Shown here: piece by piece, positions 44,774 to 51,574 of the stretch | How positions within the stretch are numbered: the first letter of the stretch is position 1 | Layout of the letters: each line of letters opens with the position of its first letter | Assembly: GCF_900107095.1 (NCBI RefSeq) | Contig: NZ_FNOR01000004.1 | Location: 1 to 64,000, forward strand | Origin: Collimonas sp. OK242 | GTDB lineage: Bacteria; Pseudomonadota; Gammaproteobacteria; Burkholderiales; Burkholderiaceae_D | Length of the DNA stretch: 64,000 nucleotides | Direction: 5' to 3' | Notes under the pieces: generated by a model | The model's input: only the letters and a program-made list of their open reading frames with translations | Databases searched by the model: none | What the model was told of the DNA's origin: nothing | Program-made: the position numbers and the translations under genes

Positions 44774-45349
44774 CTATTCGTAGCTGACTATCACCTGGCT
44801 GGCCGATCCCTGCAACGCGGGGCTCAAGGGGTCTCGGCCGTCGATAACAAAAGCAAATACAAAATTCGAAAAGCCGTTGTCGCCTTCGAAAGCACCGGTG
44901 CTACCGCTAGCGCCGCCAAGGCCTATGCATCTGGCGTAATTGCATAAATAAGCATGGATGCCGGCAGGCGCCGCCGTCAGGAAGCTGTATTGCCATCCGA
45001 CCCGGCGCGTTTTCGAAGTTGCATTGATCCCGCTGCCGAGCGGGGCAATCTGGGCCGATTGATAGCGTACGCCACGATGAAACATCGCTGGCGCAGAAGT
45101 TGAACTGCTCCAGGAACCGGCAACCCGGCCAGCTCCGCCTTCACTGGCGCCGCTGTCGATTCGTATGGCGCCGGGGCCGGCGGCCAAATTTCCATTACGC
45201 TCAAGATAAGTGCTCAGACTGATGGCCGCGGCGGGTCTGTCGCCGGCACAGACGCTTGCCGCCGGCAACACCAGCAAGCTGGCGGCCGCGGCGCATAAAT
45301 TGCGCAGTAACGTTCGCGCCCTGGATGCGGCGCAAGTTGAGAGCGCCAT
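44774..45349 (-). CDS. flhE: Flagellar protein FlhE (periplasmic), long form
   Basis: FlhE is a periplasmic protein that in enterobacteria controls proton leak through the flagellar export apparatus. The 191-residue product has a signal peptide (about 15-37, LLRNLCAAAASLLVLPAASVCA) and a C-terminal domain that matches FlhE: WQYSFLTAAPAGIHAYLCNYARCIGL, GSTGAFEG, NFVFAFVIDGRDPLSPALQGSASQVIVSY. The cysteine pair LCNYARC fits the family (LCSQSRC-type). It is about 60 residues longer than E. coli FlhE, mainly between signal peptide and core. The ATG at 45349 is one base past fliA, not downstream of flhA as in E. coli. Confidence 0.8.
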   Translation of the reverse strand: MALSTCAASRARTLLRNLCAAAASLLVLPAASVCAGDRPAAAISLSTYLERNGNLAAGPGAIRIDSGASEGGAGRVAGSWSSSTSAPAMFHRGVRYQSAQIAPLGSGINATSKTRRVGWQYSFLTAAPAGIHAYLCNYARCIGLGGASGSTGAFEGDNGFSNFVFAFVIDGRDPLSPALQGSASQVIVSYE

Positions 45350-45350
45350 C

Positions 45351-46094
45351 TCAGGCCAGCTCGCTCCGGCTGGCTTCGCTCAGACGCACCCGCAAGCGGC
45401 TGATGGCCTGGCTATGCAGCTGACAAACCCGCGACTGGCTGACTTCCAGCACGGCGCCGATTTCCCGCAAGTTCATCTCTTGCTCGTAATACAAACTGAG
45501 CAGCAACCTTTCGCGCTCAGGCATCAGTGCAATCGCTTCCACCAGCATGTGGCGCATGCCGCTATCCAGCATCCGCTGCAGCGGATCGTCAGCACCGCCG
45601 CGATCACCGTAGCCGTGCTGCCGGTCGAGAAAGGAATTTTCGTTGCCGCCGCCTTCGCAGTCTTCGTAATACACCAGCTGCGAACCATGAATTTCCTGCA
45701 GCAGATGCTGGTAGTCTTCCAAAGACAGCTGCATCGATACCGCGATTTCACGTTCGCTGGGCGAGCGTGACAGTTTCTGCTCCAATGCCTGCACCGCAGC
45801 ATCCACTTTACGCGAGGACTGCCGCAAGCCACGCGACAGCCAGTCGTTGGCGCGCAGCTCGTCCAGCATCGCGCCTCGAATGCGCTGGCTGGCATAGGTT
45901 TCGAATTGCGCGCCCTGGTCATCCTGGTAACGATTGGCGGCGTCCAGCAAACCCAGCATGCCGGCCTGGATCATGTCGTCCAGTTCCACGCTGGCCGGCA
46001 ATTTCGCAATCAGCTGTAAAGCCAGGCGTCGCACCAGCGGCGCGTACTTCGCCAACGTATCGGATTTATCGATTTTTCCCTGAGCGGTATACAT
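45351..46094 (-). CDS. fliA: Flagellar sigma factor FliA (sigma-28)
   Basis: FliA directs class III flagellar transcription. The 247 residues have sigma region 2 (LAKYAPLVRRLALQLIAKLPASVELDDMIQAGMLGLLDAANRY, FETYASQRIRGAMLDELRANDWLSRGLRQ), region 3 (ALEQKLSRSPSEREIAVSMQLSLEDYQ) and region 4 (MPERERLLLSLYYEQEMNLREIGAVLEVSQSRVCQLHSQAISRLR). The ATG at 46094 follows GGAAGAGG. A short acidic insert with GGGNEN (about 150-170) precedes region 4. It lies downstream of flhG. Confidence 0.97.
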   Translation of the reverse strand: MYTAQGKIDKSDTLAKYAPLVRRLALQLIAKLPASVELDDMIQAGMLGLLDAANRYQDDQGAQFETYASQRIRGAMLDELRANDWLSRGLRQSSRKVDAAVQALEQKLSRSPSEREIAVSMQLSLEDYQHLLQEIHGSQLVYYEDCEGGGNENSFLDRQHGYGDRGGADDPLQRMLDSGMRHMLVEAIALMPERERLLLSLYYEQEMNLREIGAVLEVSQSRVCQLHSQAISRLRVRLSEASRSELA

Positions 46095-46162: not shown

Positions 46163-47005
46163 TCAATGCGCCCGCGCGGTGGCGGCAGCCGTAGCGGCAC
46201 CCGCAGTTTCAACTGCAGTTTCAACATTACGTGGCCATTGCAGCAGCTGCCCAGCGATGCGACGAAAATCGACCGCTGCAGCACTGGTCTGGAATGCCTC
46301 TACCACACTCAGCTTGAGGCCCTGGGCGCGCGCCAGATACGGATCCGCCGCCACGCAACCGGCCGATTCCAGCGCCAATCCCAGATAACGGCTGCCGGTG
46401 GCGGCCAGGTTATTCAGCACGCGCTGCGCTTCCGGCATGCCCGCCGCCTGATTGACCATGATTCTTAAGCGCTGCAGCGCGTGCGCATAATGCAACTGCT
46501 TGATGCAGGTGTAAGCCGCGGTAATCGATGCCGCCTGCGGCCGCAACACCACAATCACATCGTCGGCTTGCGCCGCCAAAGGCGACAAGGCGCCGCTTTC
46601 ATCCAGGCGGGCGTCGATCAGGATCACCTGCCCTTGAAACACACTGCGCACCGCGGTCGCCGCCGCGGCCAAATCATTTCTGTACACGGGCAACAGCAAC
46701 GCGCCACAGGCCATGCGCGATGCGGCAAGCGGCAGCGACATGCCGCCGGCGGCAACATCCGACCAGCTGCCCGCCGCAGCTCCCGCGCACATTGCAGTTG
46801 CCGAACGCGATCCGCTCTGCTCATCCAGCAACAACACCTCTTTTCCTTGCTGCACCAGAGCCGCAGCCAGGTTCAACGCGACACTGGTGACGCCAATCCG
46901 AGGACTGCTGCCGACCAATGCAATGACATGCGCTGCCTGCATGCCTGAATGCTGCGCCATCAGGTAGCGCAAACCGTCTGCCTGATCGCTGACCACCTTG
47001 TTCAA
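46163..47005 (-). CDS. flhG: FlhG/FleN-type MinD-like ATPase homologue with altered P-loop
   Basis: FlhG pairs with FlhF to set flagellar number and place. The 280-residue product starts LNKVVSDQADGLRYLM, like the FlhG activation helix, then the P-loop region VIALVGSSPRIGVTSVALNLAAAL. The expected Walker A lysine (GKT) is replaced by Val (GVT), and the deviant signature lysine is Arg or absent. Walker B is kept (VILIDAR), as is LLLDEQS after it. The start is a TTG at 47005 with GGGAG upstream, 10 bases after flhF stops. ATP hydrolysis is doubtful; see findings. Confidence 0.85.
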   Translation of the reverse strand: MNKVVSDQADGLRYLMAQHSGMQAAHVIALVGSSPRIGVTSVALNLAAALVQQGKEVLLLDEQSGSRSATAMCAGAAAGSWSDVAAGGMSLPLAASRMACGALLLPVYRNDLAAAATAVRSVFQGQVILIDARLDESGALSPLAAQADDVIVVLRPQAASITAAYTCIKQLHYAHALQRLRIMVNQAAGMPEAQRVLNNLAATGSRYLGLALESAGCVAADPYLARAQGLKLSVVEAFQTSAAAVDFRRIAGQLLQWPRNVETAVETAGAATAAATARAH

Positions 47006-47015
47006 AGCAGCTCCC

Positions 47016-49466
47016 TCACCCTTGCAAGGCCGCTGTGCTGCTTGCCGCAGCCAGACCAGGTTCTGCGTCAAGCACATTGTCGACATCCAGCGCCAACGCA
47101 TCCAATACTGCAATCAGCTTGCCAAATCCTTCAAACAGCGCCGCCGCCGAGGCGACAGTGACGGCACTGGAGCGTATCCGATGTCCCGCCAGCTGCGCCA
47201 ACAGCGCGCGCGCCGCAACAGCCCAGCCGTCCGGCCTGTGCGCCAGCCGCCAGATGGTGGTGCCGACCTGCGCCGCCACCAGCAGCCGCTTCTGCATATG
47301 GCCGTCGCCCGGTTCGGTACAAGCATCGAGTTGCTGGATGGCCTGTTTGAGCAGCTTGTAATAAGGATCGGCGGCTTGTTTCCAGCAATACCATGCGGCA
47401 AGTTGCGATGCCGTCGCCGATGGTGCGACATTGCTCAGCAAATACCAGCTGGCGAGCAGCTTGCCGCTGTGTCGATCGACGATGCGCGTGGCCACGCAAC
47501 GCAAATTGCACAGACATGCGCCGTGCAAGGTGTCGCCACGCAAATTGACCGCCACCTCCGCCAGCGTTTGCTGCGCCGGTTTGCCTTTGTAGACGATTGC
47601 CTCGGGAGCGCTGAAGACCAGCTGCGCAGCCAGTTTTGCGAGCGTTGTCCTGCCGCCGTTAGCCGTCACGCTGGTCGTGCCGCGCGCCCGCGCCAGCCAC
47701 AGCAGGCCGTCAGCCTGCCAGGATTGAATCATGCCTGGCGCCGGCATCCTGTCGAGCAGATGCACCAGGGGCTTGCCGAAATCCTGCCGGCTAAGCCACG
47801 TCAGCTGGCGCTGCGCCGGAGTTGGCAAGGCGCCAGCTGCGTCGGCCGCCAGTGCGGTGGACAGCAATTGATGCGGCGCCGCCAGCGGCATGCCGTCGCG
47901 ATCTGACAGCAACAAGCTGGATTGCAAAGTGTAGGCATCGCCGCTGCGGCTGGCCAGCAATTCAGTCTTGCCGCTGATTGCCAGCACATGGGCAGCGCAG
48001 GCAGTATTTATTTCTGTATTCGCCTGCACCAACAACTTGCGGCTTGCCTCTTGGCTGCCGACGCTGTCGTTTGCCAGGTCGCGCCACAATGCGCTGCTGG
48101 CCTCGAAACCGATCTGGCCGTCAGCCAGCGCAGCGGCATTGGCTGCCAGCTCTTCAGCGTCATGCGCCAAGACCCGGATCAGTTGCTGGCATTGACTGCG
48201 CAGACGCTCTGTGGTTGCGGCGGCGGCAGCCAGCTCGGTGTCGTTGCTCAATGCCGCCGGCAACTCGCCCAGATCGGCTTCGCCCGGCACGAACAGAGCA
48301 CTCCGGCTTGCACTTTGGAAGACGCTGTCGACCAGCTCCGAGCGCTCGGCAATCATCAGGTTTTCCGGTACCTTCTGGCCGCAGGAGACGTAGTGCACCG
48401 GCAAGCGATGGCGTATCACGGTATCCAGCAACGCCCCGGGATGGGTTGCCTCGTCGGTTTTGGTAAAGATGCAACCTGCCAGCTGATTGCCGCCTGCGCC
48501 GTCTTTATAGGCGTGCACTACTTCGTTCAAGGTATCGCCATGACTGGCTGCATTCAGCAGCAGCAGGCGCTTGACCGGGCGCCCGGCGCCGCACAGCATG
48601 GCGACCTGGTCGGAGACGCTGCGATCGCGCTGGCTCTTGCCGACCGTATCGATCAATACCATGTGTTTATCGCGCAGGTCATCCAGCACCAGTCGCAAAT
48701 CGGCCGCATCTTTTACTGCATGCACCGATACGCCAAGAATCTTGCCGTAGATGCGCAACTGTTCGAACGCACCTATCCGATAACTGTCGGTAGTCAGCAG
48801 CGCCAGCTTGTCGGCGCCGAAGCGCATGACGCAACGTGCCGCCAGCTTCGCGGTGGTGGTGGTTTTACCGACGCCGGTCGGTCCCATCAAGGCGTAGACG
48901 CCGCCGTTGTCCATCATGGCGTCTTCGTTTTCCATCAAAGGCAGATTGCGCGCCAGTTCGGCTTTGACCCAGGCCATGCCTGTAGCAAAATTCTGGCCGG
49001 TCGGCAGATGATCCAGCATCGCCTTCGCCAGGCTGGCGCTGAACCCGGCGCCCAGCAAGGTACGCAGCAGATGGCCGCGCACCGGATCGCGGCGCTGCTT
49101 GTCATTCCACACCAGGCCGGCCAACTGCTCTTCGATCATGCCGCGCATCGAATGAATCTCGCTGATGACGCTATCGTTGCTGATGGACGCAACCGTGCTT
49201 GGCGCCGGCTGCGCCGGTGCCGGTACTGATACAGATAATGCAGTCGCCGCTGCGGCAGGTACGACAGCCGCTGGCGGCGTCAAAGGGGTCTGCAGATCAA
49301 CCGCCGTTTCCAGCATGGCGACGATTTCGGCGCCGGCTGCGGTCACCCGGTTGGAGACGATAATCGCATCCGCCCCCAGCCGCTCCCGTACCAGGCGCAG
49401 TGCTTCGCGGCTGGATGGGGCGACGATGGTGACGCGGTTCTCGATGTTGGCGGCGTTGTTATTCAT
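47016..49466 (-). CDS. flhF: Flagellar GTPase FlhF with about 420-residue C-terminal extension
   Basis: FlhF is an SRP-type GTPase that guides flagellar assembly. This product is about 816 residues, about twice normal. Residues 1-60 form the B domain (SREALRLVRERLGADAIIVSNR), 100-185 the N domain, and 190-390 the G domain: P-loop MGPTGVGKTTTTAKLAAR (about 196), LTTDSYRIGAFEQL, G3 IDTVGKSQRD (normally DTAGR) and G4 FTKTDE. Residues about 395-816 match nothing I know: first a helical Ala/Leu part, then a mixed part with Trp- and Cys-rich stretches (ACLCNLRC, LAAWYCWK). The frame is open throughout. ATG 49466 is used; a TTG 6 bases upstream has better GGAGG spacing. Confidence 0.88.
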   Translation of the reverse strand: MNNNAANIENRVTIVAPSSREALRLVRERLGADAIIVSNRVTAAGAEIVAMLETAVDLQTPLTPPAAVVPAAAATALSVSVPAPAQPAPSTVASISNDSVISEIHSMRGMIEEQLAGLVWNDKQRRDPVRGHLLRTLLGAGFSASLAKAMLDHLPTGQNFATGMAWVKAELARNLPLMENEDAMMDNGGVYALMGPTGVGKTTTTAKLAARCVMRFGADKLALLTTDSYRIGAFEQLRIYGKILGVSVHAVKDAADLRLVLDDLRDKHMVLIDTVGKSQRDRSVSDQVAMLCGAGRPVKRLLLLNAASHGDTLNEVVHAYKDGAGGNQLAGCIFTKTDEATHPGALLDTVIRHRLPVHYVSCGQKVPENLMIAERSELVDSVFQSASRSALFVPGEADLGELPAALSNDTELAAAAATTERLRSQCQQLIRVLAHDAEELAANAAALADGQIGFEASSALWRDLANDSVGSQEASRKLLVQANTEINTACAAHVLAISGKTELLASRSGDAYTLQSSLLLSDRDGMPLAAPHQLLSTALAADAAGALPTPAQRQLTWLSRQDFGKPLVHLLDRMPAPGMIQSWQADGLLWLARARGTTSVTANGGRTTLAKLAAQLVFSAPEAIVYKGKPAQQTLAEVAVNLRGDTLHGACLCNLRCVATRIVDRHSGKLLASWYLLSNVAPSATASQLAAWYCWKQAADPYYKLLKQAIQQLDACTEPGDGHMQKRLLVAAQVGTTIWRLAHRPDGWAVAARALLAQLAGHRIRSSAVTVASAAALFEGFGKLIAVLDALALDVDNVLDAEPGLAAASSTAALQG

Positions 49467-49468
49467 GC

Positions 49469-51574
49469 TCAAGACTTGCCTCCGATGGTGGCCGTTACTT
49501 TGATGGTGCGGGTATCAGGAATTTCAGCGTGCGACAGCACCTTCAGCTGAGGCAAGCTGCGGCGTAAGAAGCGCGCCAGCAAGACGCGCAAAGGATGTTG
49601 CACCACCAGCACCGGCGACAAGCCGAATTGCTCCTGGCGCGCGATGGCCGCCTGGGTCTGCGTCAACAGGCTGTCGGCCAGGCCCGGCTCCAGGCCGCTG
49701 CCGTTGGTCAGCGCCTGCAACAGGACCCGGTCAAGCGAATTGTCGAGACCGATCACCTGCAATTCGCCGCTACCTGGGAATAGTTGTTGCGTGATGGCCC
49801 GTCCCAGCGCCAGCCGCACCAGCGATGTCAACTCGTTGGCGTCGCTGACGGTGGCGCCGTGCTCCAGCAGCACATCAAGAATAGTGCGCATGTCGCGGAT
49901 CGAAACACTTTCATCCAGCAGGTTTTGCAATACTTTCTGCAAGGTGGTCAGCGACAACATCTTCGGCACCAGGTCCTCGATCAGTTTCGGCGCGTCCTTG
50001 CCTACCCTGTCCAGCAGTTGCTGCACTTCCTGCCGCCCCAGCAGCTCGGACGAATGGGCATGGATCAGATGGTTCAGATGGGTGGCGATCACGGTGCTGG
50101 CGTCGACCACGGTATAGCCGTAGATCTGAGCCTGTTCCCGCATATGGGTTTCGATCCAGACCGCCGGCAGGCCAAATGCCGGATCGACTGTCTGGGTACC
50201 TGGCAACGTAGCGCTGACCTGCCCCGGATTGATCGCCATCCATTGCCCCGGCCACGCTTCGCCTTGCGCGATCTGCACGCCTTTGAGGGTGATCACATAG
50301 GTGTTCGGCTTGAGTTCGAGGTTGTCGCGGATATGCACTACCGGCACCAGGAAACCGATGTCCTGGGCAAATTTCTTGCGTATGCTCTTGATGCGTCCGA
50401 GCAGCTCGCCGTTCTGGCTGCGGTCCACCAATGAAATCAAGCGATAGCCGACTTCCAGCCCTAGCGGATCGACCAGCGCCACGTCATCCCAGCTGGCGTC
50501 GGCTGGTTCCGCTGCAGCGGCAGACGGCGGCGGCGCCTTGGCCGCATAGTCGGCTGCAGCAGTACGTTGCAGCAAACGGCGGCCGAGATAGACCAGGCCG
50601 CCAGAGATAATCAGGAACGCCACGTGCGGCATGCCCGGCACCAGTCCCATCAGGCCGATAATACCTGCGGTCAGGAACAGCACTTGCGGATTGGAAAACA
50701 ACTGCCCCATCAGCTGCTGGCCGACATCCTCGTCGGTAGTCACGCGCGAAACGATCACGCCGGCGGCAGTGGAGATCACCAGCGCCGGAATCTGCGCCAC
50801 CAGGCCGTCGCCAATGGTCAGCAGGGTGTAATTCTTGGCCGCCACCGAAATATCCAGACCATGCTGAGCGACGCCGACGATGAGGCCGCCGACCACATTG
50901 ATCACCATGATCAGCAAACCTGCCACCGCATCGCCGCGCACGAACTTGCTGGCGCCGTCCATGGAGCCGTAGAAATCCGCTTCCTGGGCGACTTCGGCGC
51001 GGCGTTTGCGCGCCACGTCTTCACCGATCAGACCGGCGTTCAAATCGGCATCGATCGCCATCTGCTTGCCTGGCATCGCATCCAGCGTAAAGCGCGCGCC
51101 GACTTCGGCAATCCGTCCGGCGCCCTTGGTAATGACCATGAAATTGATCACCACCAGAATCACAAAAACCACGATACCCACGGCGAAATTGCCGCCCACC
51201 AGGAAGTGGCCGAAGGCTTCGATCACTTTGCCCGCGGCATCCGGTCCGGTATGGCCTTCCAGCAGCACCACGCGGGTGGAAGCCACATTGAGCGACAAGC
51301 GCAGCAAGGTAGAAAACAGCAAGACCGCAGGGAAGGCGGCGAAATCCAGCGCTTTCATGGTGTACATGCTGACCAGCAGCACCATCACCGACAGCGCGAT
51401 ATTGAAAGTGAACAGCAAATCGAGCAGGAATGGCGGCAAGGGCAGGATCATCATGCCGAGAATCATGATGATCAGCACCGGACCCGCCATGCCCTTGACG
51501 CTGTTGCCTGCCAACAGCGCCGCTCCTAAGCGTGGCAAGGCGCTGAATGAGAAATCTGAACCTGCGGGCTTCAT
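49469..51574 (-). CDS. flhA: Flagellar export gate protein FlhA
   Basis: FlhA is the large export-gate ring that couples export to ion flow. The 701 residues show about eight N-terminal membrane segments (ALLAGNSVKGMAGPVLIIMILGMMILP, NIALSVMVLLVSMYTM, FAAFPAVLLFSTLLRLSLNVASTRVVLL, FGHFLVGGNFAVGIVVFVILV, DADLNAGLIGEDVARKRRAEVAQEADFYGSMDGASKFVRGDAVAG) and a large soluble domain after residue about 330 that ends near HAEIPDTRTIKVTATIGG. The conserved cytoplasmic loop with RRAEVAQEADFYGSMDGA is intact. It overlaps flhB by 4 bases (ATGA). Confidence 0.97.
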   Translation of the reverse strand: MKPAGSDFSFSALPRLGAALLAGNSVKGMAGPVLIIMILGMMILPLPPFLLDLLFTFNIALSVMVLLVSMYTMKALDFAAFPAVLLFSTLLRLSLNVASTRVVLLEGHTGPDAAGKVIEAFGHFLVGGNFAVGIVVFVILVVINFMVITKGAGRIAEVGARFTLDAMPGKQMAIDADLNAGLIGEDVARKRRAEVAQEADFYGSMDGASKFVRGDAVAGLLIMVINVVGGLIVGVAQHGLDISVAAKNYTLLTIGDGLVAQIPALVISTAAGVIVSRVTTDEDVGQQLMGQLFSNPQVLFLTAGIIGLMGLVPGMPHVAFLIISGGLVYLGRRLLQRTAAADYAAKAPPPSAAAAEPADASWDDVALVDPLGLEVGYRLISLVDRSQNGELLGRIKSIRKKFAQDIGFLVPVVHIRDNLELKPNTYVITLKGVQIAQGEAWPGQWMAINPGQVSATLPGTQTVDPAFGLPAVWIETHMREQAQIYGYTVVDASTVIATHLNHLIHAHSSELLGRQEVQQLLDRVGKDAPKLIEDLVPKMLSLTTLQKVLQNLLDESVSIRDMRTILDVLLEHGATVSDANELTSLVRLALGRAITQQLFPGSGELQVIGLDNSLDRVLLQALTNGSGLEPGLADSLLTQTQAAIARQEQFGLSPVLVVQHPLRVLLARFLRRSLPQLKVLSHAEIPDTRTIKVTATIGGKS

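Follow-up and report, generated by a model that had tools for sequence, protein, structure and literature searches.

The flagellar protein FlhF is described in the excerpted text of a 2025 review (PMC12826062) as consisting of a B domain, a linker and an NG domain only, and the word transposase is absent from that text, in which the DQAxxLR motif is also said to act on FlhF. The FlhF that we consider here agrees with this known form (TIGR03499, PF00448) in its N and G domains, its GTPase motifs and the gene order flhA-flhF-flhG, but carries about 380 further residues beyond the usual C-terminus. NCBI covers such long FlhFs with the model PRK14723 (NF011312, "flagellar biosynthesis regulator FlhF", 768 positions), which aligns with residues 14 to 791 of the present protein (E 3.5e-265). 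The protein scores 882 bits, under the curated cut-off of 951, although it is aligned almost end to end; the description of the model is without mention of a transposase, and the transposase origin that we propose is not named by it.

The other described relatives belong to mobile elements. With the IS4-family/Tn5 transposases (nearest subgroup NF033590), the extension of FlhF shares homology over most of its length, and Tn5 entries are the closest Foldseek matches of its low-confidence models, but it differs in being fused to FlhF, in the loss of the catalytic triad and of the basic charge, in the lack of bounding repeats and in its single copy. The inhibitor of Tn5 transposase (1b7e), which is among the top Foldseek matches, is likewise transposase-derived. 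This inhibitor is encoded by the transposon and acts by pairing with the transposase, whereas the extension has become a permanent part of a flagellar protein of the host. In eukaryotes, the domestication of transposases is a familiar phenomenon. The present fusion is undescribed in the open-licence papers on FlhF extensions and domesticated IS4 transposases that were searched, mostly by title and the opening of the abstract.

Within the window (the whole stretch of 64,000 nucleotides that was analysed), flhF is located between flhA and flhG, as in known FlhF loci, with flhA upstream and the genes for an FlhG-like protein, fliA and flhE downstream (Table 1). The flhF frame (47016-49466, minus strand) contains no internal stop, and the protein matches TIGR03499 with E 1.6e-75. 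Its G-domain motifs (P-loop GPTGVGKTTT, DTVGKSQRD and TKTDEA) are all kept, and the P-loop, DTxGxSQRD and TKxDEA motifs are intact in all 25 of the long FlhFs. The ordinary tail aligns with the C-termini of short FlhFs, which end soon after (by-eye comparison of nine long and nine short tails, the normal tail being about 25 residues). The sequence-only reading, which described one unbroken frame from a normal FlhF into a long extension, is borne out; the extra residues that it placed at 47016-48290 and put at about 420 are real (about 400 by our count), and the transposase homology lies slightly inside these limits.

Table 1. Features of the flhF locus in the window.
Feature	Position	Strand	Evidence or remark
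flhF	47016..49466	-	816 aa, ATG at 49466; GTPase with C-terminal domain, by homology transposase-derived
FlhF SRP-type G domain, residues 190-383	48318..48899	-	PF00448 E 1.7e-33
Ordinary FlhF C-terminal tail, residues 388-414	48225..48305	-	Alignment judged by eye
IS4/Tn5-type transposase-derived domain (by homology), FlhF residues about 421-798	47073..48206	-	BLASTP and hhalign ranges; Foldseek
Gly499 replacing first catalytic Asp of DDE triad	47970..47972	-	Alignment to free transposases
Asp572 at second catalytic Asp position	47751..47753	-	Alignment; Asp in 11/24 extensions
Asp700 replacing catalytic Glu	47367..47369	-	Alignment to free transposases
FlhG-like protein	46163..47005	-	Probable TTG start at 47005; DQADGLR enhancer motif kept
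fliA-type sigma factor	45351..46094	-	ORF; sigma-70 domains
FlhE, between flgN and fliA	44774-45349	-	PF06366 E 5.6e-32
flhA, upstream neighbour	49469..51574	-	ORF; PF00771 E 1.6e-272

Sequence comparison identifies the extension as an almost complete DDE transposase of the IS4 family (Tn5 type), attached where FlhF normally ends. The first hint is a weak match to an IS4 transposase model in NCBIfam (E 0.1), where nothing else but PRK14723 matches; the extension has no match in Pfam or PHROGs, and none among the PDB sequences when searched alone with phmmer. A profile of 13 extensions finds a free open frame of 456 codons (L058, E 2.8e-58), flanked at its ends by 23-nt inverted repeats (96%), as expected of an insertion sequence. 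By BLASTP, for which E values are calculated for an assumed database of 1e8 residues, the extension and L058 share 27.6% identity over 387 aa (E 2.2e-37), and each of the six free transposases given matches the extension, the worst at E 8.7e-20. When 14 extensions are compared with the six transposases by hhalign, the probability is 100% (E 1.2e-41, 371 columns), and another sequence set gives E 2.6e-43; the controls, one reversed and five column-shuffled, give 0.1-0.4%. The group of L058 is nearest to IS4 in NCBIfam, where 6/6 match NF033590 (best E 4.5e-25; L058 itself has 74 bits, below the cut-off of 160), and in Pfam 6/6 match DDE_Tnp_1. The extensions of Cupriavidus and of family f4 match the free transposases more weakly (best BLASTP E per extension 6e-11 to 1e-3), and those of family f221 give no significant BLASTP match to transposases (best E 0.08), their assignment resting on hhalign (97.3%, E 2e-11).

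Further matches come from plasmids, where tblastn with the extension alone retrieves 17 records. Nine of these have features annotated as transposase (best E 3e-19), including examples from Methylotuvimicrobium (E 3e-19), Acinetobacter (E 5e-18) and Serratia (E 4e-12); four are hypothetical proteins of Arsenophonus (E 3e-4), and four are from Cupriavidus, among which we read the CH34 record as FlhF. NF033590 itself, searched in 60 genomes of the order, has matches in six, mostly short pieces, with one above the cut-off. The homology has a practical consequence for annotation, as PRK14723 matches 6/6 of the free transposases (best E 1.2e-37) through its C-terminal half (the range is that for L058), and users of this FlhF model are warned accordingly.

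The sequence-only reading recognised no fold in the extension and proposed HMM and structure-based searches; a recognisable relative does exist, and BLASTP, hhalign, a PDB profile search and Foldseek point to the IS4/Tn5 DDE transposase. The transposase profile matches Tn5 transposase chains in the PDB with E 1.4e-4. When two AlphaFold models of the extension are compared by Foldseek with 350,542 chains, the top six are Tn5 transposase or inhibitor in both cases, at E 4.3e-6 to 3.0e-5 for the first model (next 0.016) and 1.9e-4 to 3.3e-3 for the second (next 0.071). Since a scan of viral contigs for related transposases confirmed none, the alignments are shallow (12 rows) and the models are of low confidence (mean pLDDT 47.6 and 44.1), and the TM-scores of both to Tn5 are low (0.20-0.38). 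The fold assignment therefore draws mainly on the sequence profiles; a Tn5-type RNase H-like fold is a candidate, with Foldseek as supporting evidence only.

The catalytic triad is lost. The count is made on 24 extensions, that is, the 25 long FlhFs minus one whose locus is cut (L086), with L062 aligning poorly and the f221 rows standing outside the count. Because the first Asp is missing from 24/24, the D-D-E triad is complete in none, and Glu is found at the third position in 11/24. Around the catalytic Glu, Y-2-R-3-E-6-K is what we take to be the transposase signature, and it reads Y-2-K-3-D-6-K around Asp700 here. The free transposases have the DDE triad in 5/7 cases (L073 has Asn at the first position, and L072 is without the region), and the first Asp is present in five of the six that reach this column.

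We turn to the distribution of the long form. Among 15 Collimonas genomes searched, nine have an FlhF above the family cut-off and all nine carry the extension; the other six give weaker matches only (best E 4.5e-20), which are read as the related GTPases FtsY and Ffh. When 56 distinct FlhF cores are compared, the part behind the G domain falls into two length classes, 24-38 aa (n=30) and 353-448 aa (n=25, including L086, whose locus ends inside the extension), with a single core at 93 aa; as the loci were partly selected as long, this proportion is not a survey. Open frames of the short FlhFs range from 396 to 689 codons, and the upper part of this range is due to the N-terminal region. The single intermediate tail (L045, from G240) has a last part that looks frame-shifted.

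A profile of 14 extensions gives 13 matches at E 0.001 in 399 genomes of the order. Nine of them are FlhF fusions, from 6 of 158 genera: two genomes each in Collimonas (g1), g97 and Cupriavidus (g103), and one each in g80, g119 and g425. The remaining four are L127 and the weak and short L128, L129 and L130, of which L129 resembles a Tn5-type transposase on inspection and L128 showed nothing clear. L127 (from G735, same order) is a free IS4-type transposase that is related to the captured domain and has all three DDE residues. The model PRK14723 has some match in 275 of 300 genomes of the order, but it also matches the related GTPases; among the matches listed, all but seven end before profile position 490, and the curated cut-off is passed in only one genome.

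Beyond the order, 369 genomes of the class give 14 matches at E 0.1, the source genome's own included; they are free or decayed transposases, weak matches (one a chemoreceptor-like ORF) and one further long FlhF, L062 of G682. In the family of G682 (f221), 17/61 genomes match the profile A5, with open frames of 722-791 codons, and 14 of these 17 loci have the FlhF P-loop in the excised frame; the other three (L140, L141, L149) are left out of later counts. G682 itself is without an A5 match at E 0.001 in the family search, its A1 match in the class search being 3.8e-11. Across 398 genomes of the phylum, the seven matches comprise two ORFs that resemble transposases and five FlhF fusions known from the searches above. 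The named holders of long FlhF (11/11 loci) are Collimonas (3 loci), Cupriavidus (7) and Ralstonia sp. 25mfcol4.1 (1), and Cupriavidus metallidurans CH34 also carries a long FlhF. The extension is thus present in Collimonas, Cupriavidus and four other sampled genera of the order, and a strongly diverged form occurs in one further family of the class. As an addition to FlhF that recurs and is restricted to certain lineages, it is of the kind that the sequence-only reading proposed to look for.

Does the extension do anything for its host? In the 24 extensions of the tree no stop interrupts the 353-448 codons, and dN/dS is 0.11-0.40, well under 1, in 12/12 overlapping pairs, against 0-0.058 for the G domain (a simple counting method, with some dS > 0.7). 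For these reasons the extension is, on codon comparison, under purifying selection, looser than that on the GTPase domain. Across 23 extensions (L062 left out), 30 columns have one residue in at least 90% of rows. The cysteine-rich patch pointed out in the sequence-only reading (GACLCNLRC) is present here, but its CLC occurs in only 1/24 extensions and is particular to this sequence. A tolerated read-through fusion, a passenger of little function in slow decay, would account for the rate at which the extension evolves, several times that of the G domain, for a fusion found in only 9/399 genomes of the order, and for a core tree compatible with loss in the Burkholderia-like clade; against the open frames, the low dN/dS and the conserved columns, we consider this reading unlikely.

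The trees bear on how often the fusion arose. In the extension tree, the 24 extensions lie on one side of a single branch from the seven transposases (support 100/100). The tree is unrooted and drew program warnings (long branches, and unlike letter make-up in six transposases); for want of a root, it permits one origin without proving it. In the tree of FlhF cores (55 rows, without L045), two changes between long and short labels are required, only 20% of the bootstrap trees requiring one, and a Burkholderia-like short clade adjoins Collimonas. Residue 733 of FlhF is Gln in 23/24 extensions and 7/14 f221 rows, and Met or Cys in 7/7 transposases, a pattern that fits a shared ancestor after the capture. 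A single origin of the fusion is not proven.

Descent from a DNA-binding enzyme, of which the N-terminal part is still alignable, raises the possibility that the domain still binds DNA, with or without sequence specificity, and connects FlhF, or the regulation of flagella, with the chromosome. The net charge of the 24 extensions, however, is -8 to +2, compared with +9, +9, +5, +7 and +13 in the five longer free transposases (it is -3 in two shorter ORFs of 339 and 369 aa), and so, on calculated values, the extensions no longer have the basic charge seen in the longer free transposases. Even the free transposases, moreover, give at most a marginal match to the DNA-binding Pfam family (best E 0.04). 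DNA binding is accordingly a doubtful role.

The reading that we prefer is that the tail of FlhF is of IS4-type transposase origin, with the catalytic residues lost and the domain retained. We hold this to be very probable, a confidence that covers origin, catalytic loss and retention and does not extend to the present function. That the homology spans almost all of the transposase, and where the junction lies, is established at the level of sequence. An IS4-family (Tn5-type) transposase gene would have been fused in frame with flhF, at its 3' end just behind the normal tail, presumably when an insertion sequence landed at the flhF stop codon. Alignment and dN/dS show that the domain then lost its DDE residues and its basic charge, the frame and many core positions being kept under purifying selection. 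It may now be a protein-protein module on FlhF, for dimerisation or as a tether to an export-apparatus, basal-body or polar partner, that tunes where or how many flagella get built. We infer this role as a default and give it an even chance: nuclease and DNA-binding roles are disfavoured because catalysis and charge are lost, and a mere passenger is disfavoured because of the purifying selection. FlhF is a model for flagellar number and placement, and in Collimonas and Cupriavidus the extension gives it an additional module that lends itself to experiment.

The partner-binding role suggested by the sequence-only reading would still be the likeliest function, but its more specific part, that the extension compensates for the altered FlhG, finds no support in the neighbouring gene. 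The P-loop of the FlhG-like protein reads SPRIGVTS and is without the Walker-A lysine. Among 25 long FlhF rows (one of them cut), 20 have the start of a DQAxxLR protein just downstream, and 0/20 have the P-loop lysine (L062 is among the 20, and its P-loop region was not found). The four long FlhFs of family f4 (L011, L013, L014, L040) have no DQAxxLR protein in the stretch searched directly downstream. Both observations would suit an extension that acts on FlhF in cis, in the controlling role that FlhG has elsewhere. Of 31 short FlhF rows, however, 30 have the DQAxxLR motif downstream and only 7/30 keep the lysine; since the other 23 lack it too, the loss is general and not tied to the extension. 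The DQAxxLR motif, moreover, is kept in Collimonas and Cupriavidus. Control in cis in place of FlhG is therefore improbable. A wider version, in which a transposase captured perhaps once, by an ancestor shared by several betaproteobacterial lineages and one other family of the class, became a cis regulatory domain of FlhF (acting on dimer state or anchoring) and partly replaced FlhG, is likewise unlikely; if true, it would mean that a dead transposase helps decide the place and number of flagella.

Two further readings are dismissed. A still active transposase or nuclease domain is very improbable, for although Collimonas extensions keep the second Asp in 8/9 (Glu in L009) and an acidic residue at the Glu position in 9/9, the triad is complete in no extension, no pair of terminal inverted repeats bounds the domain at the flhF locus (the one 19-nt repeat pair, 79%, has an arm at 48209-48227 and the other inside the domain at 47140-47158), and the extension has a single match in the source genome, compared with the several copies expected of an insertion sequence. 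An assembly or frameshift artefact fusing two genes, the danger named in the sequence-only reading, is ruled out for practical purposes by the same single frame in 9/9 FlhF-bearing congeners, in other genera and in separately sequenced Cupriavidus records.

Two minor observations concern the neighbouring genes at other loci. At L132 (f4), the next ORF after the long FlhF is on the other strand and looks FlgN-like by eye, and at L134 a small ORF, FlhE-like by eye, lies between the FlhG-like gene and fliA.
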